This document shows, piece after piece, positions 11,448 through 63,500 of a DNA stretch of 64,000 nt. The position numbers and the translations under genes are program-made. Position 1 is the first letter of the stretch. Each line of letters opens with the position of its first letter. The notes below the pieces were generated by a model. That model searched no databases and had not been told where the DNA came from. It worked only from the letters and a program-made list of their open reading frames with translations. This stretch comes from Tubulanus polymorphus (taxonomy: Eukaryota > Nemertea > Palaeonemertea > Tubulaniformes > Tubulanidae): assembly GCF_964204645.1 (NCBI RefSeq), contig NC_134029.1, forward strand, positions 21,780,450 through 21,844,449, given 5' to 3'.

Positions 11448-17296
<5,849 letters not shown>

Positions 17297-17582
17297 ACTG
17301 GTGGTTTAACGGTGATATCACTAATTATCAATCATTAAAATCACTTTAAACAAGAGAGAAAGAAAACAACAGCATTCGCGCAAATTTTATTTTCGGTTGC
17401 CACTAAACTTCGGAAGTGGTTTTAGTCCGCGACCGCGGCCGTATTTTAGATAATTCCCCGGAAATGGTTCAACCTATGGCAAGCGTTTATTATGGTTTTT
17501 GTTATAGTTACGTCAAACAATTTTGTTAAATTCCAAAATTTGTCACTTGCTCATTCGTTCGTCCTGCGCAAAAAGCTTAAAG
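17297..17582. promoter_or_regulatory. Divergent promoter between SMARCA5 and C18orf32
   Basis: Only 286 bp separate the start codons of two genes read in opposite directions, so both promoters and 5' UTRs must lie here. Visible motifs are an ETS-like CGGAAGTG at 17411-17418, a GC-rich CCGCGACCGCGGCC block just downstream, and a CRE/ATF-like TTACGTCA at 17518-17525. No TATA box is placed convincingly. Shared regulation is an inference from spacing. Confidence 0.7.
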
Positions 17583-18044
17583 ATGGTGTGCGTTCCGTGT
17601 ATTGTCGTGCCCTTCTTACTGTGGGTATTTCACAAGTTCATTAGACCATATCTACCAAGTTTCCTGACCCCATGGAAAAAAACTGACGCAGTAACGGCGG
17701 GCCAAAGTCAAGAAACAACAACAACGAATGAGCATAATAATTCCAAAAATGAAAAATCAGAGGTGTGTAATGTATATGTCGTTCGGTTCACTTTTGGATC
17801 ATCCACCTATACCGGGTTTTTATGGCCTCCCGTCAACGCAAACCCTGCTCGCCCTTCCGTCCTCGGACTTTGTTAGGAGGCAACCATTCAAACCCTGGCA
17901 AGCGAGGATGCTATTTAGATAAAAATCGATTCAAGATCCTTTACCATTGTTGTTCTTTTATGTTTGTAACAGATGAATGGTCATATCTCAAATGGGACAA
18001 CAAATAAAGAAGAGATAACAGTGTCAGATAAAAAGACCGATTAG
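17583..18044 (+). CDS. C18orf32: UPF0729 / C18orf32-like small membrane protein
   Basis: Two coding exons, 17583-17762 and 17973-18044, give 83 residues (human C18orf32 is 76). The N-terminus MVCVPCIVVPFLLWVFHKF closely follows the family, with a Cys-Pro-Cys-containing hydrophobic start. The second exon begins MNGHISNG and ends KKTD before TAG, matching the family's conserved tail. The exon junction GAG|GTGTGT...ACAG|ATG keeps phase. One hydrophobic helix near the N-terminus suggests a small membrane-anchored protein; the family has been linked to endoplasmic reticulum and lipid-droplet membranes, but its biochemical role is unclear. It lies head to head with SMARCA5. Confidence 0.92.
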
Positions 18045-18885: not shown

Positions 18886-21489
<2,604 letters not shown>

Positions 21490-22083
21490 TGTAGAGTAAA
21501 TCCTTATGAACGCTACTGTATCAGAGATAAAACGGAAAGCATTTCCTGGTAGTAGAAAAAGGGAGATGTTGCTGAAACTAAATTCAAACAACGGATTTGG
21601 ACTAATTTTGGCCCAAAATGACAATTAATTTAGATAATTCGTATCATTTTTTATTATCTTATACAATTTGGGTAATAAATTGAAATACTAACATCGCTAT
21701 TTATTTCTTCGTTCCATATATCGAAAATGTTCGTTTCGTTTTTCCATTTTCCCGGAAGATGGCGCCTTAATCGATAGCAGACCGCAGCAATTTAGCCGAA
21801 TGTTTTTGTTTATTTTTTGACACGCTTTTTTTCTTGATTATCCCAAAATAAGATCAGATGTGAAGACGGGGCTTTGGTGGTACATATAAGAAATCCGTGT
21901 ATAGGAACGTGACTCGAACAGGCGATGAAATTCCCGATTTTTCGCGTTTGTCTCTCCAGGGGACGCGACACTGACGCCACCTGGGTTTGACCCCTTCAAC
22001 AAAGGGCTTGTGAAATATTCAAGATGGCGTGTATCCCCCAGCAATTCCGAGGATCGCGGAGGCCATTTTAAGGACGTAGAATT
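21490..22083. promoter_or_regulatory. Divergent promoter between RIOK2 and THAP-BTB gene
   Basis: The start codons are 594 bp apart in opposite directions. The interval contains overlapping CCGGAAG (ETS-like) and AAGATGGCGCC (YY1-like) at 21762-21776, a second AAGATGGCG at 22021-22029, and a reverse YY1-like GGCCATTTT at 22061-22069, just upstream of the THAP start. TATA elements are not evident. YY1/ETS sites are typical of housekeeping promoters; function is inferred. Confidence 0.6.
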
Positions 22084-25000
22084 ATGGGGCACAAGGACTA
22101 CTGCTGTGTGCCTGGTTGTGGAAATAGGAGGGATGAAAAAGCAGGGTTTTCATTCTACTCAATACCCCTGAAACCACATGAGAGACATAAATCCTGGCTG
22201 GGAGCTATTGGTAAAGGTTTTGATTGGGTACCCACTGCCCACACACGGATATGCAGTCTACATTTTGTGGGCGGTAAGAAAAATAACGATCCGGACAGTC
22301 CTTCGTACATTCCTACGCTACACCTGGATTTACCTGTAACCGAAGATGAAACCCGTCGTCGACGACGGCGACCACCTGTTTCCGCGAGTCTCATCGCTAA
22401 CATTCGCCGCGACGTCGAGGGTAACATTTACACGTCGACGAGAACGATTCCTTCGACGCCGGACGTGATGAAAGCTAAAACCGTCAGATCTCTTCTGTAC
22501 AACGACGTCGTTCACATGGAAAACGGATTTCAAAACCAACAACAACCGCAACCGGATCAGGTCGTCGCGGTAACGCCGAAACCGGCGGAATCCGGATCGT
22601 TTTCGTCGTTTATTCGTTCGTTGAGTAAAGAAAATACGTTGAATTTAATGAAACAAAGTTACGTGAAAATCGGAGCCGAAACGAACACAACGCCACCTAG
22701 CGCTACAGTATCCGTCAATCCGGAATCAAAACCTAATTTCCAAGATGTGAGTTAACTGTACCGAAAACCTGCAATCAGTTGCTCAAAAATTGGTTAAAGT
22801 TTGATTAAAGTACCATGGTAGTTAGTTACCTAATCGTTGGTGGTATTTATCTACTACATGTAGGCCTATTTAACTTTTGCCAACTTTTAAGTAACTGACC
22901 TCTGTTTGTTGTAAGTCGCCGAAATTGCCTGTCAATCTTTACAATTACCTGTTGTCATACGTTTTACAGAAGAGTGTATTTGGATCAGGTTCGATGTGGA
23001 AGGATAGTAACCATAGTAACAAATTACTGAAGAACCTAGCTCGCTTGTGGAATGACCAGACTTTTGCCGATGTTGTGATAAATGTTGGTTTTGAAACATT
23101 CCATGTAAGTTTTGAATTCTCAGTTTATTCCGTAATTAGGCCTATATTTCCCATAGAAAAATGGTTCTTGAAATGCAATTAGTAATGATATGATTTAAAT
23201 ATTATTTCAGGCACATCGCATTGTTGTCGCCGCAGCCAGTCCTTTCATGGCTAGTTTACTGTCAAATGTTCCGTTACAAGATAAGTGTAAGTACTTCATT
23301 TAACCCTTTCAGTGCGTCTACACCGTAGTGCGGTGTATGAATTGGTGATTTATTTTGCTAGTACACTGCACTGCGGTGTATCGATGTAATAACTAATTAG
23401 TAATTATCTCTATTGAAAGATGGCAACACCTGTCAAACATAGTGAAATATTGATAACTGATGATACACAGCACCGCAGTGTAGACGCACTATAGTGGTAT
23501 TCCGGTTATTCAACATACTAGGGTGGAATTTTTTCAAAATTTTCTAATCTCCAACACTATGAGGTATTATTGAGTCAGCACTGAAAGGGTTAAAGCCATC
23601 ATTGAAATGATTTCAGGCTAGCTGAAAATTTCAGACAGGTCTCATTTTGATGTCTAAGATTATGTTTTTGTTTTCAGGCGTGAGCATTGAACTTCCGTGC
23701 GACCCTCGAGCGATGAAAGAAATCCTCAATTTCATGTACACGGGAACTCTAACACTGAAAGACGAGACGGTGTATCCGATACTGTACTCGGCTCAGATGC
23801 TGAACGTCGAGAAAGTGCGATACATGTGCGAAAAATACGTCGATATTAACAAACTGCCGAATCCGGAAAAAGGCGAACACGAAAATGACACCGATATGGC
23901 GGAGGCGTACGAAAATGACAACAGCGTAAATAGCGACGAGAACGACGAGTGGAATAACGGACCAAAAATCGAATCGTGTTTCACATTGACGAACGGAGAT
24001 TCAAAAACTGAAAACAATTTCGAATCCAGTTCGCAGACGAAACGTCGCAAACGAAAAGCCGAAGTGACGATGAAACTACAGCCGAAACTACGCGTAATCG
24101 CCGAGGATGGCCTAGACGAGGCGGTCACGGTGAAAGAGGAACCGGATTGGGAATGGGATGACGCGCCGGAAGAAGATCCTCCGATGGTGCCCCCAGATAT
24201 CGATGTCAAAACCGAAAACGCGCAAATCGATACGATTGATGAGATTAGACGAGAAGTCGACGAGGAACTCGTCGCGGAATCGTCGTCGAAAAAGAGCCGC
24301 AAACGAAAGTCGAAACCGTTCCGAGCTGCGTGCGTCGAAACCGTCAAACTCGAAGAACCGAAACCCGAAGAGATGAAAGATTTATTAGGTTTGTTCGGAG
24401 GCGGTGATTCGGAGGTACAGAATACCGACGTCGGCGAGTTTATCAATAAATTACTGAACGTACACGACATAGTATCGCCTTCTGATCTCAATCTACCTGA
24501 AGATACTCACGACGGACTCGGGTTCATGGGCGAAGGAATCTTAGCTCCGTACAGTTCGAAAAGCGTCAAATCGAAGAAAAATCCCGACGAAGTGAAAAAA
24601 CAACAACAGGGACCGTTTTCGCGTATTTGCGCCGTTTGTTTCTGGCGTTTTCCGTCGGACGAGACCGCCGAAAAGCATATACGCAAAAATCACCCGGAAG
24701 TGAGCGAGGCCGAAATTCTGAGCAAAATCAAAGAAATGCGAATGCTGAACGCTAAACAGGATAATAGGAACTCGTCGAAGAATCAAAACGCGAACGCGAA
24801 GTCATCCGACGCGAAACAGAAAACGTCTGAGATTCTGCCCGACGATATCATGATATCTCGACAGTTCATCTCGAGTAACGATCGCACGGTGAGTAGTGAC
24901 GGAATCAAACAAAAGGCGGCTCTAGCGTACGTGTGTTGTCATTGCGATTCGAAGCACGAGTCACTACCCCTGTGTTTGGAGCACGTTCGCGATTGCCCGG

Positions 25001-25764
25001 TTCGTCAAACCGGGAAATCGCCGCGCGAACCGGCGCCGCCGGCGAAGATCGCGCAGCAGAGCGCCGCGAATCTGTACGGCGAATCGGCGAAGTTAGATTC
25101 GCTGGATCGCGTGGAACGCGACGAACGCGGTCGCATTCTGTATCACTGCGACGAGTGTCAGTACAAAACAACGCAGAAATATTACCTACCATTCCATCGT
25201 TATTATAAACATAGCATACCACTACCGGACGGTATCGACGTCTACGAGTGCGAAGTCTGTCATAAAAAACACCCGAGCGCCGGCGCGCTACGCGATCACA
25301 TGCTTTATCACAGCACGTCGAAGGATCATCAGTTCGTTTGTAGTTTATGTAAAGAAGTATTCAAAACCGTAACGTCGCTTCGCGATCACACGCGTCGCAG
25401 TCATCACCTCACAAACTCGGATACGCCGAAAAAGGAGAAACAGTATTATCAGTGTGACTATCCGAATTGCATTTATCGCACGCGCTATAAGAATAAGCTG
25501 TACACGCATTCCGTGCGACATTCGGGGGCGCAGCCCGAGTGGTTGAAACCGAAACCAGAGCCCGACCAAGACGGCACGCTTTATATCGACGAACTCGACG
25601 ATATGAACAGTAGCGCATTATCGAATCAGGACGAAGGGAATACTAGCGCGGCCGCCGCTGGCGCGTCGGTTCAAGATGATCCGAACTCGAGTGATTTATC
25701 TTCGCACGAGGTAGCAACCGGTACGTCGGATATCGTGTCCAAACAATCGGAAATTCCTGAATAG
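22084..25764 (+). CDS. THAP + BTB + C2H2 zinc-finger protein
   Basis: Four exons, 22084-22746, 22970-23104, 23211-23286 and 23678-25764, splice in frame to 986 residues. Residues 1-85 form a THAP domain: CCVPGC, a Trp in KSWLGAIG, RICSLHF and the YIPTL motif in AVPTIF position, a zinc-binding DNA-binding fold. Residues about 236-345 form a BTB/POZ domain (LWNDQTFADVVI, FHAHRIVVAAASPFM, LNFMYTGTLTL), which normally dimerises or recruits cofactors. An acidic, basic-patched linker follows, then isolated C2H2-like fingers near 609 and 709 and four in a row at about 780-905. Likely a nuclear DNA-binding regulator. I do not recognise an orthologue with this arrangement. Alternative: a 223-residue THAP gene ending at the TAA inside intron 1 plus a separate BTB gene starting at ATG 22997. 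The good donor GTGAGT and matching phase favour one gene. Confidence 0.8.
23300..23593. mobile_element. piggyBac-like MITE with TTAA target site
   Basis: The element lies in intron 3 of the THAP-BTB gene. It starts TTAACCCTTTCAGTGCG and ends ACTGAAAGGGTTAA, so it is flanked by TTAA and has inverted CCCTTTCAGT ends. Inner inverted copies of a CGTCTACACCGTAGTGCGG-type segment follow. TTAA duplication with CCCTTT ends is typical of piggyBac elements. About 294 bp, no coding capacity. Confidence 0.75.
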
Positions 25765-33600: not shown

Positions 33601-36600
33601 ACAGTGCCATGTGTTACGCTCACCAGACTTTCCTATCATTGTCGTAATGCTGCCGTCGTTCTGCTGAGAGTCCTATTTAGAGAGTCAAATGAAGACCAGA
33701 CGACGGCGTAATGAATCATAATTGATTTTTGATAGACAGCAATGAATGATTTATCTGCATTGATTGCATGAGATGCTGATATTCGTTAATCTCTATGGTC
33801 ACTCATGTCCGATATGATATATTGTTATATCGTTTAATGTCACCCAAGATGTCACCATTTCATAAGCTTACAACTATCAATACCCCGGTATATGTCAGCT
33901 GAGCTAACACAAATTCTTTGATTCAGCCAGTCTAATTTATATGATCATTTGTTTGCGTGATATGTTCACACTACTCTTACGTCGCCATTTTCAATGAATC
34001 AATCATCTTCACATCTTGTATTCCATTTTAGGGTCAGTTGAAGGTTAGTCCTGTATCCGGTCGCCAGGAGCCATATTACCCGCCGTGGAAACGAAATCTT
34101 TTCCGCTACCTAGTCAGCATGCCGATCATCATCATTTGTCTCATGATCGTGTTTGCTTCCATGTTACTTATCTTCCAAGTAGATGGATACGTCACGCAGA
34201 AGGTGAAAGCCGGTGAACTGTGGAAGATTGCGAAGTTTGGCCCGAAGATTCTGCTCGCAATTACAATCGGCATTTTAGATGATATTTACAAGAAGATCGC
34301 ATTCTGGCTCAATGATAAGGGTGATTATTTGAAATGTTTGATTATTTCAAGAAGAATCAATTTGTATCGCATTTCGTGAAACTTTTTTGCTTTTTCCAGA
34401 GAATTACCGTGAAGATAGCTCTTACGAAAATCATCTTATCATCAAACTAGTCCTTGTAAGTGGAATCAAACGCAGTACTTATTTGGGCATCTATAATATA
34501 CGTAATTGACAAATGTTGCGACATGTTTCTCATATTTTTAGTTTCAGTTTGTGAATTCATTCCTTTCGTTGTTCTACATTGCATTTTACCTCAAAGACAT
34601 GAATCGCCTTAGAGAGGTAAAGTAGTAATTAAATTTGTAACAAAATTAATGCAACCTTTAGTTTAGAATTCGTTACATCGTTTTTCAAAGGCTCTTGTAA
34701 ATTCAATCTTAGCCTCAATTACCTAATATCGACATATCGCGATATTGTATCATTACCTCTTTTCTAGCAATTAGCAGCTTTGCTGATTACGCGGCAAGTG
34801 ATAGGAAATATTAAAGAGGCGCTAGTTCCGTATATAATCGAGAAAGTAAAACTCTTCCAAGTAGGTTATAAAATGACTGCAAATATGAGTCCAGACACGC
34901 TCGATCGAGAAGCTAAAGAGATCTTACTGAAGAAACAAGCCGAGCGAAAAGGTAAACCAGCCATTTTCAACATAACATTAAAGATATGTGAATGTTAAAT
35001 CCCACACAATAATTAAAAGACTAAAAAGTTTATCAAAATATAGAAATATTTCGGGTGGTTCCTATCACCCTCCTTCAGTCTAAGATGATATGTCGAATAA
35101 ATACACAGTATATAGATATGAAATCAGAAACAAATTTATTTATTTGACATATTTCTGTATTTTGATTAACTTTTTAGTCATTCAATTATTGCGGAATTTT
35201 ACATTCATTGTTTCCATGGATATTGTAATCTACTAATTCATTCAAGGCATATGTATAGAGATTTTTTTGTTTGCAGTATTTGTAAAATAGTAGTAGCTAT
35301 TCCCATGATTGAAAAATGCGATAATCTTTTATTTTGTGTACCGGTACATGTATTGGTGAAGGGTAATACCTCCTAGGATACACGGAATGTACTGAATTCT
35401 GAATTGGTTAATGTTTTAAGCTTTGTTTTATAAAGGTCTCATAAAGGAAGGCATACAAGAGACCTGCGATGCGGTCGTAGCTTCTGGACTTCAAGATGTC
35501 AATAAAGAAAAGGTACACCTGAATGCAGCACATAGTGGACCTACGCTAACCCAAGCTGAGGTTGAAGCTGCCATGAAACCTGTAAGTTTCAATACGTAAG
35601 ATATATCCTTCTCATGAAATTAAACTGAAATACATAGTAATAATGATATTAGATAAGTCTTATATAGCGCAGGTATCCTATAAAAACAGTTCAGATGCGC
35701 TCCACTAGTTAATATTGTCTGAATAGAAGTGTCTTTAGATGAGTCTTGAACTGCTCCGGAGAAAACGATTCAAAATCGGTGAAACTATGCGAGTACATGT
35801 GATTAATAACCATATCGTTCTGTATCTATTTATAGTACGAAGATACATTTGAAGATTACCTCGAGATGTTTATTCAGTTTGGTTATGTGACACTTTTTTC
35901 GTGTGCTTTCCCGATGGCTGCTCTTTGCGCATTGACTAATAACATTATAGAAATACGTAGTGATGCATTTAAGCTTTGTATGACCTCACAGAGACCGTTT
36001 GGTCAGCGTGTTGCTGACATTGGGGTTTGGCAGGTAGGATGGTGTACTTAGTCGCAAGAACCGTTCTTCTTTATTTTTGTATACATACATCTTTTAAAGC
36101 CATATCTTTTATTTCTTCAGGATGCATTAGAGTTGATGGGTGTGATAGCTGTGATTGTAAACAGCGCTCTGATCGGTATGTCAGGGCCTGTCCACCGAAT
36201 GTTCCCCAATATGGGACCAACAGAAACTGTTGTCTTCATAGTAGTCTTAGAGGTATGTGATACAACTTTAAAGGGTTCATTTCTTTTTGTGCATTACCCT
36301 GGTATTACGATAGCTAAGAAAGGTTCTGAATATTCTTCCGTATTTCAGCACTTGGTCTTGGCAATGAAGTGTGGAATAGCATACGCAATTCCAGACATTC
36401 CTCATTGGGTCGAACAAGAAATGGCTAAGTGGGAGTTTAGGAGAAGAGAAGCGTTTAAGGTATAGTATCCCAAAAAGTAGTCTCAGTTTTGTTGATTTTA
36501 TTTTTATGTTGTATGATAGGTACATACTACGCTGCTTGTAATTTTTCTATTTTAGCGAATCCAGAAGAAAAACAGTGATCGCAGTCAATCACATTCCAGG

Positions 36601-39957: not shown

Positions 39958-40510
39958 TTCCGTTCACCCCAGTACTTTTGGTATTATTGTTGGTCTGAGC
40001 TCTGATACTTGACGGTTTATGCGATGTCTATCATTGTTTCTTAAGTTGGAAACTTAGCTGGTGAGTTCAACTAACTTTAAATCAGATAACGTTAATCTTT
40101 TGACTTCATGCTTAGAAATTCAAATCTTTTTTATTGACTGCTTTAAAAGTTAACAAAAATTTGAATAAAAGTATCAGCATATGCAGTGTCAATAGGACAA
40201 CACAAAATGTAATTGCAATTAAAACAGTTTTCATTATAAAGTGAGTGAATACTGTCTAATATGATTATATTTTTCCTTTCTAGAATGAAAAGTCCAAAAA
40301 AAGGGCCGTGGCAACTACTGCATATGGTGTCCTGTCATCTACAATGGACATCGGGAATGGATATTATGATTGATGGGTCAACTTTAATTTGAACAGTAAC
40401 AAATTGGATAATCAACCAAAAGTCACAGCAAAAAAAGAACAAAGGGAGAAGACATCCGTGTATAGTTACTAGCATTGATTTTAACGGATAAGATTTTATT
40501 GTTACTTACT

Positions 40511-41914
40511 ATGGATAGTAGAAGAGAAGATGCTAGTAGTACGAGTAGTTCTGATGATCGATTTATAATCGATGGTATAGACTACATGCAACAAGGAAGA
40601 GTTAGTCCAAAAAATGGTGAAAATATTGAAAAAACTGACTGTACAAATGGTGTATATTATTTCGAGACTGATCACTGCGCTCTTCAAGGAAACAAGGATT
40701 ATCAAAAACTCTTGAAAACTCTAGCGATTTTAGAATCGCAGCGGATCAAAGCGTTGACCGATTTGGAGAAATTGATGGACAGCGAGGAAGCCGCGTTGAA
40801 AGAGCCGTTGGTATTCGTACAAAGACTGCAAAACAAAGAGGATTTAGGTTTGCCGAAACCTCTTTTCATTCCAGAAATACCAAAAATTGCGTGGGATGAA
40901 TACACGTATTGCGCTGCAGAGTTTAATATGAGTTTAAGCGGAGTGAAAACTCGCGGAAAACGCGTTAATCTTGACAATTTGAAACCGACAGCGTCAAATT
41001 CTATTTCAAATGATTCTTCTATCGCTGAGAAAGTTCGCGGTCGCGTGAAAGTTGGAGATAAATCGGATACTTTTAATAAGCTATGGACGGTTGATGAACA
41101 AAAACAATTGGAAGACTTATTAGTTCAGTATCCACCTGAAGCAGTCGAAGTGAACCGGTATAAGAAAATTGCTAACGCTCTGGGTAATAGGACCACTCAG
41201 CAGGTCGCAAGTCGAATTCAGAAATACTTCGTGAAACTTCATAATGCCGGTCTTCCAATACCCGGGCGACTTCCCAGTAAATTAACTATATTGCATAATA
41301 CTGCGAAGACCACTCACAAACATCAAAAGCATAATCGTTTTTATTGGAAACCATCAACGTTCATGCAATCATACGATCCTCCTGTTTATATGTCCGATGA
41401 TGATTGCGTTGGGGACGAGGATGATGATAACGATGATGATAGATTTGATGAATCATTTTCTCATATTAAGCCGGCAGTGGTTCTCGATTCGCGGCAAGAA
41501 AACGCATCAGTGTCGGACGATGAAAGCATACCCGTCGAACTGCGTGCATCCGACGAATATACAGAAATAATGCGACTGAAAAAATTGAAAAGAAAGAAAA
41601 TACGCACGGAAACAAGTTCCAATTCACAGCAACTACAGCACATTGGTTACAAATGCGATCGTTGCGATTCTGAACCAATAATCGGTATACGGTGGACTTG
41701 CACGGATTGTCCTTCGGGTTCAACTGTTGACTTGTGTGAAGAATGTATCCACAGTTCATTTGAAACAGTCTCGCACCACGCAACTCATCGCTTCAAAGCT
41801 GTACATAGACCGACACCAGCACTCGCCATCGACATGGATTATACTAAACTGACTCCGAGTGGATACGATTATTTGGACCCGAACTATATGCCTGCTTGTG
41901 AGACTGAACATTGA
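40511..41914 (+). CDS. ZZZ3: ZZZ3-like SANT and ZZ zinc-finger protein (ATAC complex)
   Basis: A single uninterrupted frame from ATG 40511 to TGA 41914 gives 467 residues, about half of human ZZZ3 (903), lacking the long N-terminal region. Residues about 50-105 match the conserved YYFETDHxALxxNKDYQxLL coiled-coil segment. A SANT/Myb domain (about 188-245) has FNKLWTVDEQKQLE and GNRTTQQVASRIQKYF. An FYWKPSTFMQSYDPPVYM segment, an acidic stretch and SDDESIPVEL follow. The ZZ finger (about 378-435) shows CDRC, CTDC and CEEC cysteine pairs with terminal His residues. It ends YDYLDPNYMPA as in vertebrates. In mammals ZZZ3 is a subunit of the ATAC acetyltransferase complex, its ZZ finger binding the histone H3 tail. 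Intronless coding in an intron-rich region suggests retroposition or complete intron loss. Confidence 0.95.
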   Translation: MDSRREDASSTSSSDDRFIIDGIDYMQQGRVSPKNGENIEKTDCTNGVYYFETDHCALQGNKDYQKLLKTLAILESQRIKALTDLEKLMDSEEAALKEPLVFVQRLQNKEDLGLPKPLFIPEIPKIAWDEYTYCAAEFNMSLSGVKTRGKRVNLDNLKPTASNSISNDSSIAEKVRGRVKVGDKSDTFNKLWTVDEQKQLEDLLVQYPPEAVEVNRYKKIANALGNRTTQQVASRIQKYFVKLHNAGLPIPGRLPSKLTILHNTAKTTHKHQKHNRFYWKPSTFMQSYDPPVYMSDDDCVGDEDDDNDDDRFDESFSHIKPAVVLDSRQENASVSDDESIPVELRASDEYTEIMRLKKLKRKKIRTETSSNSQQLQHIGYKCDRCDSEPIIGIRWTCTDCPSGSTVDLCEECIHSSFETVSHHATHRFKAVHRPTPALAIDMDYTKLTPSGYDYLDPNYMPACETEH

Positions 41915-54568: not shown

Positions 54569-57500
54569 ATGAAGATGAATCTATCGGTGCTATCGTATTG
54601 TCTCATTGCGGTAGTTTGCTCGTTAAGCGAAGCCGCTGTCATTGTTGATATGGTGGACTCCAGCATCACTGTCAAAGAAGGGGCACAATTTTCGATTAAG
54701 ATAAGAAAAACTGGTATTCCCGCTGCAGATGTTTTCGTAGTTGTTGAGGTATGCTTAAAACTAATCAGTATACCAACAATTTTATTCATCGTGTGATTTA
54801 TACTTACGGTATTGATTTTTTTTACGTGATATTTTTCTTCAGTTGACGGGCCCGCAAAATACGAGTGATTTCGTCAGTAATAGTCAGCCCCATGTTTTCA
54901 AGAAAGGCGACACGACTACGGAAGTGTCTTTGACGTTGACCACAACCGATGATACCGTGCCGGAAAAAGCAGAAACTTTCTTGTTTCAATTGCGCGTAAC
55001 GTTAGGTCCAGCGATTGTCGGTAATGTACCGACCGTACCGGTCACCATACAGGCTAATGATGATGCATTTGGTGTATTTGGTTTTGATGTGGTCAGTGTT
55101 TCTTGTCCAGTTTCCTTAGATTCTACAATTTGAATGTTTCGGAAAAATCCAGTTATTAGAGTTAATATTTTTAGGTTTCACCTGTTGTGGTAACTGAACC
55201 ACAAAATATGAACCAGGCACCAGTTTCATTGGCTATAAAACGATCTGGCGGACAGTTCGGGAAGGTCATCTTAAATTTCCAGGTAAATCCTTGTTTACGA
55301 CCAAATAAACTATCTCTTCCAATTCTAAATCGTCATTTCGGAAAAGTATTTGAAAATCTGTTTATTGATTAGATGAATGCATTATCGTTTTGTAGGTTAC
55401 ACGGATATCTGGAGACACAGGGCCAGTGACTGATGATATCGCACCAGTATCCGGCACTATCATATTCACCGAACTAGAAAAACAGAAGAGTCTTGATCTC
55501 AATATTCAACCAGATTTAGTAAGTGAATTCATACTATAGCAACATTCACACGAGATCCTGGGCTTCTGAAGTACCATACTTGTGTGGTGCTGAATTTGCC
55601 AGAATACCGCACTTACAGAGCGAGTTGTGTTCACCATGATTTGGCCTGCTTTAGTTATGCCGATATTGAGGGTGATTTCAAGATGGCGTTTCCATCATCG
55701 TTTTCTTGTGTATATTTCAAATCCATTCTTAACCATTCTTAACCAAATGGCAATTTGAATTACCAATTTGATGTTACATTTGTACAACTGTAAATGTAGC
55801 TAATGTGAGTGAAATATATTGTTAAAATTGAGCGTCAAATCATGTGAATACAACCGCCCATATATCTTCATTCTTTTTAGTGGCTTCTCATGTTAAAAAT
55901 GTTGGGTGCGGATTCAGTTTCCACACTTAGTAAGTCCGGTAATTCAGTACGGTACTGAATAAATAGGCGTTGAATAATGCAGCCGTATGATTGCTCAGTA
56001 CCATACTGAAGTAGTCGTGGGGACGCCGCTTATGACAAACACCGCTAGTATATGGTCAATAGTGAACGTGACAATGTTTGGATATTTTTTTTCAGATACC
56101 CGAAGGAAATGAAACTTATTCGGTGAACCTTTCTCTAGCTACTCAAGGTGCAAGAATCGATAAGCCATCAGCGGAAATTATCATACTATTTAATGACGCT
56201 CCAATTCATCTGGGCAAGGTGTGTAGATTTGCATGAAAATATTAAAGAAATCGGTCTAAGGTGTTTGAAAACTTGTCAGGCCTTTATTATTTTACTATTC
56301 ATTTTCAGGATGTGTACATCGTCAATGAAGCCCAGACCGGTACAGTGCCGGTGAATGTTTTAGTTTATCGAGGTCTGGCGGCGGACACAATTACTCCGAT
56401 AGGACCGGCTAAAGATGTCGCCACCGTTAATTACTTCGTACTCTCGGGTTCGGCGGTGTATGGTCAAGATTTCGTCGCGTCGAACGGAACCGTGCGTTTC
56501 GATCCCGGAATCCGCGAACAAGTCATCCAAGTTTATATACAACCCGACGCGATACCCGAAAACACGGAAAAGTTCAGCGTCGTCTTAGCGAACACGATCG
56601 GCGACGTAGTTCTAGTTTCTCCGAACGAGACGACGATCATGATCAACCCGAACGACGATCATAACGGAGTGATCATGCTGAAGTCGTCTCAGAGAGCGCC
56701 ACCTGTTGTTCGCGTGAATGAGGATATTACATCAGTCGTGAGACCATTTACGGTCGAACGGAAAGGCGGCGTATTCGGAAATGTTACCGTTAAATGGCAG
56801 CTTACTGCTGCGTCTACCGTCTCCATCACTGATTTTACCCCGCTTAACGGCGTCGTGACATTCCTACAAGGAGAGAGAGAGAAAGTTATAACGTTGAACG
56901 TCATGCAGGACGTGTTACCCGAGGCGGCCGAACTGTTTACATTCTCGTTGTTGAATATGAGCGTAACGGGCGGCGCTCGCGTTGAACATCCGTTTCACGG
57001 TAGTTTGATCATCGAGGATAGCGACGCTATGTACGGCGTCATTGAATTCGGACCTAACAATCAACAAAAACTCTCAACTGTAAGTACCGAGTAGCTGATA
57101 TCTTAGTCGATTTATTAACTATTTCATTTGATGGAGTCTTTTCTTCTCTTGAAATTATCATCAAATTATTACCTATACGATCATGTAGCTTGAAATTCTT
57201 TCTATCTTATTTGTAGCAATCGAAATTAAGGAAAATAGAAGTTTCTTTCCAAAGAACTGGAGGACTCAACGGCGAAGTTGAAGCAAATATTTCGGTATCG
57301 TATACCTCGACATCGGCTAATAAGATTTCCATCCAAGGTCAGTGGCAACATTTCTAATTTGATAGCATGTATATGTATGTACCAGTTCAATTTCGTTGCT
57401 TAACTTCTACAAAATGATGAATTTGATTTTCAGATATTCTGTTAAATGGATATAACGACACTATCGTATTTGCGAATGGTATTTCACAGCGGACGGTTGT

Positions 57501-60500
57501 CATGCAGATTAAGTCATCTGCCTTCCTCAGTCTGAATTCCTATTTCACCATGAAGATCCTCTCAGTCCGACTCCTAACATGTATGTATTTTCTTCAAAAT
57601 CCCTTGAATCGTCTATCTACGCGGTATTTTGTGTTAACACGTGAATATTTCTGCCCTTTCAGCTGTTTCCTTGGGTCCATATAATAGCCCTATGGTTGGC
57701 TCAGTTTCATCGGTTACGATCAATGTAACTGCTGCTGATGCAAATGGCGAAATTGGATTCGAAAGCACGAAAGATATCGTAGTTGATGAACCAACAACAG
57801 GACCTTTATCGGTAAGAAATTATTCTAATTATCAATCGTTATATTTAACTAGTAAATTTGAAAAGATTTCCTTGGAATTATAAAGCTAGCTTCGAGATTC
57901 AAGAAGCCCGGTTTATATTAAACATGTTGTCACTTATGTTGTCACTTCAAAGTATTTTGAATTTTAAAATGGAATCAATTTACAGTTGAAACTTAAGATA
58001 GTTAGAGCTGGTACTAATGGAGACTCGATTGTCTATTGGACAATGGTACCAACAGGATCAAATTCTCAATATGTGACTGCTCAAGATACGGGAGCCACAT
58101 CTGGATCGGTAACATTAATTTCTAGTAAGTGAATGAAGATAACTTATCACCTTCGGATTCTCATAATGAGTTTATCTTATAAGTTCATCATAATTGCACT
58201 TTTGAACAGGTAATCATGAAGCATTCATCGATGTTGCCATTATGCCGGACAACGTTCCGGAAACGAATGAAGAGATTTACATTACTTTGACGTCTGCTGA
58301 ACCATCGGCCGTGCAAAAACTGAGAGTCGGTGCGACGCAAGTTAAAATCATCATCCGCGAGAACGATAACCCAGGAGGAATCTTTCAATTCAGTCCAGCT
58401 ATGCAAAACACGTACAGCGTTCAGGTTCGTAGTGATGTATTTCTTATTTCTCTGAGAAACCGTTTCCTGCTGACTCAAGGATGCCTTTAATGTGGCTGGA
58501 CCCTTCACAACGTCTGGAAAAATTGCTTTTTCCTGAAGAAATTTTTAGAAACGAAAATTAAATCCACATAGGCACTGAAAAGGCCAGAAGAGTCCTTTGC
58601 CCTGAATTTTTGTACAATTTTAAAATTTGTAATGATTGTGCCAATGCCTTGCGCCTGCAGTGTGTTCACCTTTGCAAATCAAGTGCCTGTTCCAATTTTC
58701 AGGTCCAACCCTTTGAAAATTCCAAAATACGCCCTCGTGTCTTTTTTATCTATCATCAATCTACCCATCGTTATATTTCATAGGAGGGTCAGACGCCGAT
58801 TTTTATAAGCGTCGTTCGAACCGGAGGTTCGCTGGTCACTCGTTCGGTCCTGTACGGAATGACACCGGATGGAAGTAAAGATTTCTACGGTGCGAAAGAC
58901 GTGCTGGTTTTCAAACCGGGCGAAACTGAAAAGAACGGAACCATCTTATCGGTTGAAGACCAGATTCCAGAGGTCAGTCATTCGGTCATGTTTTGATATT
59001 GTGTGACATCATTATTACAGTGCATAAAACTTGGATTTATTTCTAATTACTTTTACCGTTGAATATTTCAGTTAGCGGAAAATTTCTCACTTATTCTCCA
59101 ACCCTATGGAAGTACACCAGGCACTGTTGGAGCTCGTAACAAAATAAACATCACCATTCAACCGAGTAATGATCCTAATGGTATACTGGAGTTTGATCCT
59201 CAAGTTACTTCAATTTCAATAGGTATTTAATACATTTGAATCTTATGTGCCAATAACTGGTGACTAAAGGGTTAAGCGAACATGGTTTTCCTGGATTTAA
59301 TTTTTCCAGCTGAAAGTAAAGGACAACAAATAGCTGTAGCTGAAGTTCCAGTGGTTCGCGGCGGCGGAACGTTCGGCCAAGTAACGGCGCAATGGGCCTT
59401 GTCCAATCAGAATACAAACGACCTAACTCCTGTTACTGGATCAGCCCTTTTTCAAGATAAACAAAAGACCGCTTTGATTACCATACAAAGTGTCCCAGAT
59501 CAGGTAAAAATAATCAAACAAGAATGATTTTGTCTGACTTATATGTACCCGGTACTGTTTGTTAAAAGTTTTAAGCTTGTCTATGTTAAAGTTTATTTTG
59601 TTGTTTAGTCTTCAAAACTACGAGTTAAGGTTTGTAAAATACTTTTTGAAACTATGGTAAAGGTTTGATCATAGTAGGCTACTGGCAATAACTTTACGAT
59701 AACATGACATTGATTCTGGATGTAGGCTACTTCAGTTTTGGGATTTTGTTTCTTTCTCCCTTGGGAAGTAGTGATAGCAAACAATCTTGATTGCATTTAG
59801 CATGATTCAATTAATAGATCATAGGTCTTACATTTCTCTTTCTATGTTATTTTAGATACCAGAACCTGATAAAGTACATGTATTAACACTAACTGCAGCG
59901 ACTGGAGGTGCAAAAGTCGGAGTCAGGAAAACAATTCAAATAATCATTCGCCAAAACGATGACGCGATATCTTTCAAAGGTAAGTTTTATTCCCTAACAA
60001 TTTAATTGTGCCGTGTCCATGAGAAATTCTTAATCGAATAGCTGTATTAAATTTGCAGAACCTTTTAACATCGATACTGCTGAACCCAGTATCGCGAGTT
60101 TGACAATCATGCGTAAAGGCAATGCTTCGACGACGGCCTCGGTTAGCTATCAAACGGTTGATGGATCGGCGAATTCCACGACTCTCGATTACACGCCGAT
60201 TGTTAAAAGCACTGTCACGTTCGCTGCCGGTGAAACCGAGAAGGTAATCAACGTGACGATCCTCGACGATGGATTACCCGAAGCACGCGAATCGTTTTAC
60301 GTCGATCTTTCGGAACCGACCGGCGACGTCGTATTGTTCGGAGTTCGACGCGCGACCGTCACGATTCTACCGAACGACGTATCGGCGGGAATATTCAAAT
60401 TCGCTCCTCCGCTGTCGGTGACAACTCAAGAAGGAAAACCAGCAACTTTTAAGTAAGCATTCATTTCTCTTTCCTCTATAACATGGTCGTTTCATCTAAA

Positions 60501-63500
60501 GCATGTTGATTTTCATTTTCTTTCAGCATTCTACGCGAGGGTGGAAAGTTTGGCGCTGTCGCGATTGCTTATTCAATTTGTGACAACAACTCGATTCCAC
60601 TAAAACCGGACAACGTGGACTTCGTATCGGTTTCTGGATCGGTCACGTTTCTGCAGGGCGAAGACTTGAAAACATTAAATCTGATTCCGGCTGCAGACGG
60701 CATACCGGAATTTCAAGAAAATTTTCGAATTAAGCTTGATAACATTACGGGTAAGAATATTCAAATTTAACGTTTTACATAATTTATGCAGAGAATGTTG
60801 AAATGATGTTTCGCTTCTGTAAATATTGCGTTTTAGTCGTTAATGAAACCGACCAAACATTAGCAGTGTTGAATACGAAAGATCTGATCGCTGAAATTAT
60901 TGTCACGCAAAACGACGATCCAAATGGTGTGATCGGATTCCAAACGCAATCTCGCGAACTTTCAATCGCCGAAGATTACTACCCGGGCGAACAGACGAGT
61001 TCGGTTGCAAACTTCACTGTCGAGCGAGCTATGGGGCTGTATGGGTCCGTGCAAGCTGTATGGATGATATTCTCCGATAAAGGATCAAATCTTCCAAACA
61101 TCTATGACCTTCTGTTCTTATGTTCGCCGGCGCCGGCTTTGCAACCTACTCCGGCTAAAGCACGTCCGAGTACGGGCACTGTTGTGTTGGATTTCAATGG
61201 ATCACAAGGTAAGCAATCTTTAAAATCAAATGCTCGTCCATCAATGTACATGAACAATAATATTCCATGTGCATGTGCATCATATGCAATAGATTTGTCA
61301 ATATGTAACTTTGGGAATGAAGTTCCTGAGTCTTTGAACGGTTCTCTTTGGTTTAGGTGCATTTTGTACACTAGCTGCTGAAGCTCAGCCTCCGTCTACT
61401 GATGTCATAAATGGGTTCTCTATCAGTGTTTGGATACAGCCAACTCTCACTACCAAAGGATACGTCGTCGCGAAAGTTGACGCTAATGACAGATTATACT
61501 TCGGCATCAAAGTTATGACAACAGCAACTCAGTTGATTGTTACGTATATGTACTCAGTTTCTGGGAATCAGGTATTTCAACATGTGACTTTTGATACAGA
61601 TGAATTGGTATGCATAAGATAAGCATCTTGATCGAATTGTCATTTCAAATTTTGCAGAATATTCAGACAACAGCACTGACTGCTACTGAAAGTATTGTTG
61701 ATGGGGCATGGCATAATATTATATTGACTGTTGGTGGTGGTGTCGGTACTATGTATCTAGATGGCCGGAAAATAAGCAGCAGGTAATATTGACAAAAGTT
61801 ACCACACATGAACAATAAAAATGGATTAAATAGTGTTTTTATCATGGCAAATATTTCCATTTCAGCAATCTTGGTGTTTTCACCGTGCAGTATGGTAGTG
61901 GCAAGTTTTATGTGGGAGCTTCGTCGCCCAACGATACCGAGAAGTTTGTTGGTCTGATGCAAGATCTTCTGTTCTTCAGTCGAAAACTTGAAGCTGGGTC
62001 AGTCATGAGCAAAACAACAGATTATTCTCTTCTGTATCTTGACTTAATTTCTTAAAAATGTTGTTTTATTTGTTTGCAGGGAAATAGCTGAAGTTTACTC
62101 GATGCCCAGTCGTAAGGATCTAGTTGCGACATCGGGTTACGTTACCTTTGACAAACAAGTCAGCAAACGATACATCTCGACGTCGTCTGTGCAGGATACC
62201 GAGGAGGAGAATGACGAGGTTTTCTCGGTTCGACTGATATCCGCTAAAGGCGGGGCTAGGATCTCTAAGGTTAATTATGCCGGCATACTGAAAAGTGAGT
62301 ACTTGATAATAACTTTAAACAATCTTTAAAGAAATTGTTTGAAAATGTAGAATTTTCTTGAAATCTAGTACTGAAAAGTGACAATGCGAATGGATTGTTC
62401 GGATTCAATGGTTTGTGTTCGCCGGCTGTATCAACTACGGAAGCGGATACTCTAATGTGTACTGTCGTTAGAACTCGAGGTAACCACGATACGGTGACAG
62501 TTACCTGGATGATTACTCTATCGAATCAGATAGATGTCGCTGCTGAGACTGACTTTGTTAATAATACGGGAACTATCACATTTTTACCCGGAGAAAGACA
62601 GAAGGTAAGTTTCTTTCTTAATTGATCGATTTTCATGGTTCCTCCTGTACCGGAAAATTGGGAAAAACTTTGAAATTTTGAAATAATTTTCCCAGTTTGG
62701 AAATACTTGGGAATTAGAAATTTTCCTTTAATGCAGGAAATATTTGGGAAATTGATTTAAATTTCAGGCATAGCATTTGCCAAGGCTAACTTTCTTCAGC
62801 AATTTCTCTTGAAAATCATTTCCATTTAGGAAAACTGAAAAATTAGCCATACTTGGGAAAAACTTGGGAAAAATTGTGATTTGTGTAACTGTAGGAACTA
62901 CGGATTATGATAAAATAGTTTTGCGATATAAATCGACATTTGCCTGTACCTTTATGCATATATACATAAATTCTTGATAGCTAGAATTGTCCTCTTTGAT
63001 TTCAGACATTCGACATAAAAGTTTTTAATGATAATATTCCTGAAGTCGTTGAGAAATTCGACGTTGTGTTGAAATCTGCGTTATCGGCTGACCAAAAAAT
63101 CGGTTCTACAAACACCAGTGGTGCGAGCATCGATCCCGCAAAACAGATCACCCAAATTACGATTGCCGAAAATGATTTTCCATATGGATTGCTTCAGTTT
63201 AGTGAGAACACTACGGCCCCGGTACCAGGATCAGTTATTCAGCCTATCGATAAACAACCTCAGGTTCGTTGAATTAAAATTTGATTAAGTTGTCGGTAGT
63301 TGTTGTCAAAATGCTATTTTAGTGATAGATTTGAAGTGACAAGCATATTTCAGACCAGACTAGTAACTACTCTTTTAAGAGTAGTAACTACTCTTTTGAG
63401 AGGTCAAATACTCCCAAAAACATCAAAATACTCCGAATCCGAATGACTTCCAGTTCATTTTCAATTAAACTACTCATTTTGATGTTACAGTGCTCTCAAT

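Follow-up and report, generated by a model that had tools for sequence, protein, structure and literature searches.

A predicted gene joining THAP, BTB and C2H2 zinc-finger modules in Tubulanus polymorphus

The window, i.e., the whole stretch of 64,000 nucleotides that was analysed, comes from an animal-type assembly of 268 Mb in 77 contigs, at least 12 of which are chromosome-sized. The genes neighbouring the one of interest look ordinary and are listed below together with the adjoining intergenic stretch; unless stated otherwise, protein types were assigned by domain search.

11921-15858, minus strand: SNF2/ISWI-type helicase
17508-17873, plus strand: DUF4512 protein, presumably C18orf32-like
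within 20694-21071 and 20233-20502, minus strand: further RIO exons of a RIOK2-like gene (RIO1 E-values of 1.9e-12 and 1.8e-15)
21409-21490, minus strand: first coding exon of the RIOK2-like gene, read as an ORF with approximate ends, presumably RIOK2
21500-22083, no strand assigned: intergenic stretch, a probable shared divergent promoter judging by its motifs and CpG content
34032-36462, plus strand: anoctamin
40466-41911, plus strand: Myb and ZZ-finger protein, presumably ZZZ3-like
54816-63269, plus strand: Calx-beta repeat protein, presumably ADGRV1-like

A feature encoding a THAP domain, a BTB domain and zinc fingers is confirmed at 22084-25764, and the RIO-kinase neighbour (20233-21490, minus strand) lies divergent from it. 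Its parts, all on the plus strand, are the following.

22084-22746: exon 1, with start codon, THAP domain and a tail of 137 codons; open frame, GTGAGT donor at 22747
22102-22317: THAP domain, residues 7-78 (Pfam PF05485, E-value 6.7e-10; PDB matches to THAP11 and THAP1; pattern)
22747-22969: intron 1, 223 bp in length and of phase 0; a single ATTAAA occurs at 22804
22970-23104: exon 2, start of the BTB domain; internal Met at 22994 in a poor start context (TTCGATGT)
23045-23844: BTB/POZ domain, residues 247-347, its coding sequence divided among exons 2-4 (Pfam PF00651, E-value 5.5e-21; PDB matches)
23211-23286: exon 3, middle of the BTB domain
23678-25764: exon 4, end of the BTB domain, acidic/basic linker, six finger motifs and stop codon
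24628-24693: C2H2 motif 1, residues 609-630 (pattern)
24934-24996: C2HC motif 2, residues 711-731 (pattern)
25147-25212: C2H2 motif 3, residues 782-803 (pattern)
25249-25311: C2H2 motif 4, residues 816-836 (Pfam search and pattern)
25339-25407: C2H2 motif 5, residues 846-868 (Pfam search and pattern)
25453-25521: C2H2 motif 6, residues 884-906 (pattern)

GT-AG splicing of the four exons would yield a protein of 986 residues with one terminal stop, and the donors of the three introns are of consensus type (GTGAGT, GTAAGT and GTAAGT). This layout and length are the same as those claimed in the preliminary description. The junctions, also said there to keep phase, indeed have phases 0, 0 and 1; taken alone, phase-keeping is nevertheless weak evidence, because 32 GT-AG combinations near the chosen splice sites keep the frame open as well. 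The gene is single-copy in its own genome, and two scans of viral contigs, in which sequences related to exon 1 and to the finger region were sought, returned none, as expected for an animal gene. Intron 3 houses an element of about 296 bp (23299-23594) which ends in a perfect 17-bp inverted repeat (TTTAACCCTTTCAGTGC / GCACTGAAAGGGTTAAA), includes a second inverted repeat of 28 bp, and resembles a short non-autonomous DNA transposon (MITE).

The THAP domain of exon 1, described previously as full, bears this out: the PF05485 profile scores 40.0 bits against a curated cut-off of 23.9, the zinc ligands C7, C12, C57 and H60 satisfy the C2CH pattern C-x2-4-C-x35-53-C-x2-H, the predicted domain can be aligned to THAP11 and THAP1 in the PDB, and it is followed immediately by the AVPTIF-like end SYIPTLHL. 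A pattern scan of the predicted protein found no HCF-binding motif [DE]HxY. Single-sequence structure prediction of the THAP exon gave a mean pLDDT of 39, too low for use. Two basic clusters, RRRRRR at residue 91 and KRRKRK at residue 413, are consistent with a nuclear location of the product.

The BTB domain assembled from exons 2-4 was likewise verified, with 75.3 bits for the PF00651 profile against a cut-off of 20.5 and with PDB matches to BCL6, PLZF, SPOP and ZBTB17; the alignment with BCL6 covers the whole domain including its first helix, with just a one-residue gap. If exon 1 is joined, the domain begins at residue 247, and not N-terminally as in proteins of the ZBTB type. Further downstream, the ‘several C2H2 fingers’ mentioned earlier amount by pattern to six motifs (five C2H2 and one C2HC) irregularly spaced over residues 609-906. 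We call them divergent, because most score under the Pfam cut-offs: zf-met is the sole finger model above its own (22.1 vs 21.2), the other finger models falling below theirs.

As to the origin of the THAP exon, its closest relatives within the genome share approximately 40-44% identity over about 60 residues and mostly belong to ISL2EU-like transposases, and it is possible, if on balance somewhat improbable, that the exon was captured by a BTB-C2H2 gene from an ISL2EU-like DNA transposon in a host-transposase fusion. A same-strand DDE_Tnp_4 domain lies 1.1-1.4 kb downstream in 4 of the 6 best THAP relatives, as compared with 18 of the 60 examined. Among these relatives, L009 (G000:C2:17279500-17287500) encodes THAP, a weak HTH_Tnp_4 and DDE_Tnp_4, and L011 (G000:C5:16208500-16214500) encodes THAP, HTH_Tnp_4 and DDE_Tnp_4, both with a YqaJ gene alongside; this corresponds to the gene set of ISL2EU transposons (PMC4482050), and by their domain content both loci look like ISL2EU-like DNA transposons. 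Besides, the tail motif DPLSPDYVPSVF of the transposon relatives has its counterpart DPDSPSYIPTLH in the predicted protein. Against the capture, comparisons over 60 residues rank poorly, the THAP domain of the gene lies within one exon whereas an intron following HF-x-SG seems to divide those of L009-L011, no transposase remnant was found at the locus, and conserved cellular THAP genes are a possible source as well, the comparison having covered the relatives in one genome. Pfam and profile searches detected DDE_Tnp_4 neither in the predicted protein nor near the locus, so that the protein itself does not qualify as an ISL2EU transposase. Considering the transposase-linked relatives and the common tail motif, a transposon origin of the exon seems plausible but unproven; it concerns where the exon came from and is compatible with a single gene. 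Other THAP/DDE_Tnp_4 families in the genome comprise a dozen or so copies each with identical profile scores, suggesting their recent spread.

Apparently, the THAP, BTB and finger exons form a single fused gene with one transcript, the join of exon 1 to exon 2 being very probable on the combined evidence. No stop interrupts the frame of exon 1 over the 137 codons beyond the THAP domain, compared with 9 and 7 stops in the two other frames; the synonymous codon score of this tail (0.108 in frame 0 vs 0.136 in frame +1) gives frame 0 no advantage and is too weak to discriminate between frames. The in-frame THAP stop (22753-22755) is located six bases past the start of the GTGAGT donor. The start context of the THAP ATG (AATTATGG) is good, with A at -3 and G at +4, whereas that of the internal BTB Met is poor, with T at both positions. 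Upstream of exon 1 (21500-22083) the observed/expected CpG ratio reaches 1.38 vs 0.70 in intron 1, and this upstream stretch contains an ETS-like CCGGAAG at 21752, the YY1-like AAGATGGCG at 21756 and 22021, and GGCCATTTT at 22061, none of these promoter-like motifs being present in intron 1. Finally, chance alone would give about 0.03 THAP-BTB pairs on the same strand and no more than 2 kb apart in the whole genome, on exon-wise counts of both domains that are lower bounds, and one was seen, which is the gene itself; the next nearest pair in the 268-Mb genome is 97-98 kb apart. It is the open tail, the donor ahead of the stop, the start contexts, the short gap, the promoter features and the uniqueness of the pair that favour one gene, and this reading is better supported than that of two genes.

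A single gene could still give two products, namely the fusion protein from the spliced mRNA and a shorter one with THAP only, generated by polyadenylation within intron 1, the latter competing for THAP sites without BTB-mediated pairing. The ATTAAA lies 49 bases past the in-frame stop, but a lone hexamer among 223 AT-rich bases carries little weight, and we regard the second product as unlikely; it is compatible with the fusion gene and does not exclude it. Less likely still is a pair of neighbouring genes, namely a short THAP gene that terminates at 22753-22755 and a BTB-C2H2 gene starting from the Met at 22994, the promoter of which would have to sit in the 223-bp gap. The THAP frame does meet a stop right after the donor, a GT-rich stretch follows the ATTAAA, the stand-alone product of 227 residues would be of normal size for a THAP protein, and the Met shortly ahead of the BTB domain agrees with the usual arrangement in BTB-C2H2 proteins. 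Yet the gap is very short, low in CpG and devoid of the promoter-like motifs, the BTB Met stands in a poor start context, and the GTGAGT donor and its acceptor coincide exactly with a frame-keeping junction. An assembly chimera, i.e., a THAP exon misplaced beside a BTB gene, is highly improbable and was rejected, the sequence being unbroken within a chromosome-sized contig of 24.9 Mb and the junction showing neither runs of N nor tandem repeats.

Read as one gene, the locus would encode a product with the THAP domain at its N-terminus; a basic stretch separates it from a BTB domain similar to those of BCL6 and PLZF, after which an acidic/basic linker leads to the divergent C2H2 fingers. By analogy with its relatives, the BTB domain would pair two chains and may recruit corepressors; since two chains are paired, each dimer would bring two THAP domains and two sets of fingers to DNA. 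The protein would thus presumably act as a sequence-specific transcriptional regulator, probably a repressor. The single mRNA, the dimerisation, the DNA binding and the repression are all inferred from what is known about the THAP, BTB and C2H2 families.

Each part of this protein has known counterparts. The N-terminal C2CH THAP domain is common to THAP1, THAP2, THAP11 and the ISL2EU-type THAP-DDE_Tnp_4 transposases; the predicted protein differs from this group in having a BTB domain and C2H2 fingers in place of a transposase domain, and it is without the HCF-binding motif. The succession of BTB and C2H2 fingers is that of the ZBTB/BTB-C2H2 family (BCL6, PLZF, ZBTB17), BCL6 and PLZF being the closest to its BTB among solved structures; unlike in this family, there is an additional THAP-bearing N-terminus of about 220 residues, and the fingers are divergent, widely spaced and without TGEKP linkers. 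A similar N-terminal extension is found in ZBTB11, a known ZBTB member that comprises an integrase-type zinc module, a BTB domain and zinc fingers in that order (PMC12062965). Both proteins therefore have an N-terminal zinc module resembling those of mobile elements, followed by BTB/POZ and C-terminal zinc fingers; the module is an integrase-type zinc-binding domain in ZBTB11 and a THAP domain in the predicted protein.

The nearest precedent comes from octopus, in which Mukherjee and Moroz (2023; PMC10027918) reported THAP proteins that carry BTB/POZ domains; there, as here, both domains occur in one predicted protein of a non-vertebrate animal. C2H2 fingers, which our protein has, are unmentioned in that study, the comparison being one of descriptions only; the study treats BTB as a transposon component, an attribution we find doubtful. 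A survey of sea cucumber THAP genes names other partners of the domain, with no mention of BTB (PMC13228809), and no description of THAP, BTB and C2H2 in one protein was found in the open-access literature. The earlier proposal of a single three-module regulator gene thus stands in part: one gene is favoured and its product is most naturally read as a regulator that binds DNA as a dimer, while the novelty is reduced because octopus proteins with THAP and BTB/POZ have already been reported. The more specific claim of a previously undescribed three-module regulator that arose through the capture, by a BTB-C2H2 gene, of the THAP domain from an ISL2EU-type transposase appears doubtful, and the protein is best regarded as a mix of known parts that is unusual but not unprecedented. 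A three-module protein of this kind would overturn no current view. If expressed as predicted, it could be a self-pairing protein reading DNA with two different zinc modules, and would be one more regulator for which mobile elements supplied a DNA-binding domain, as in ZBTB11 and the octopus THAP-BTB proteins.
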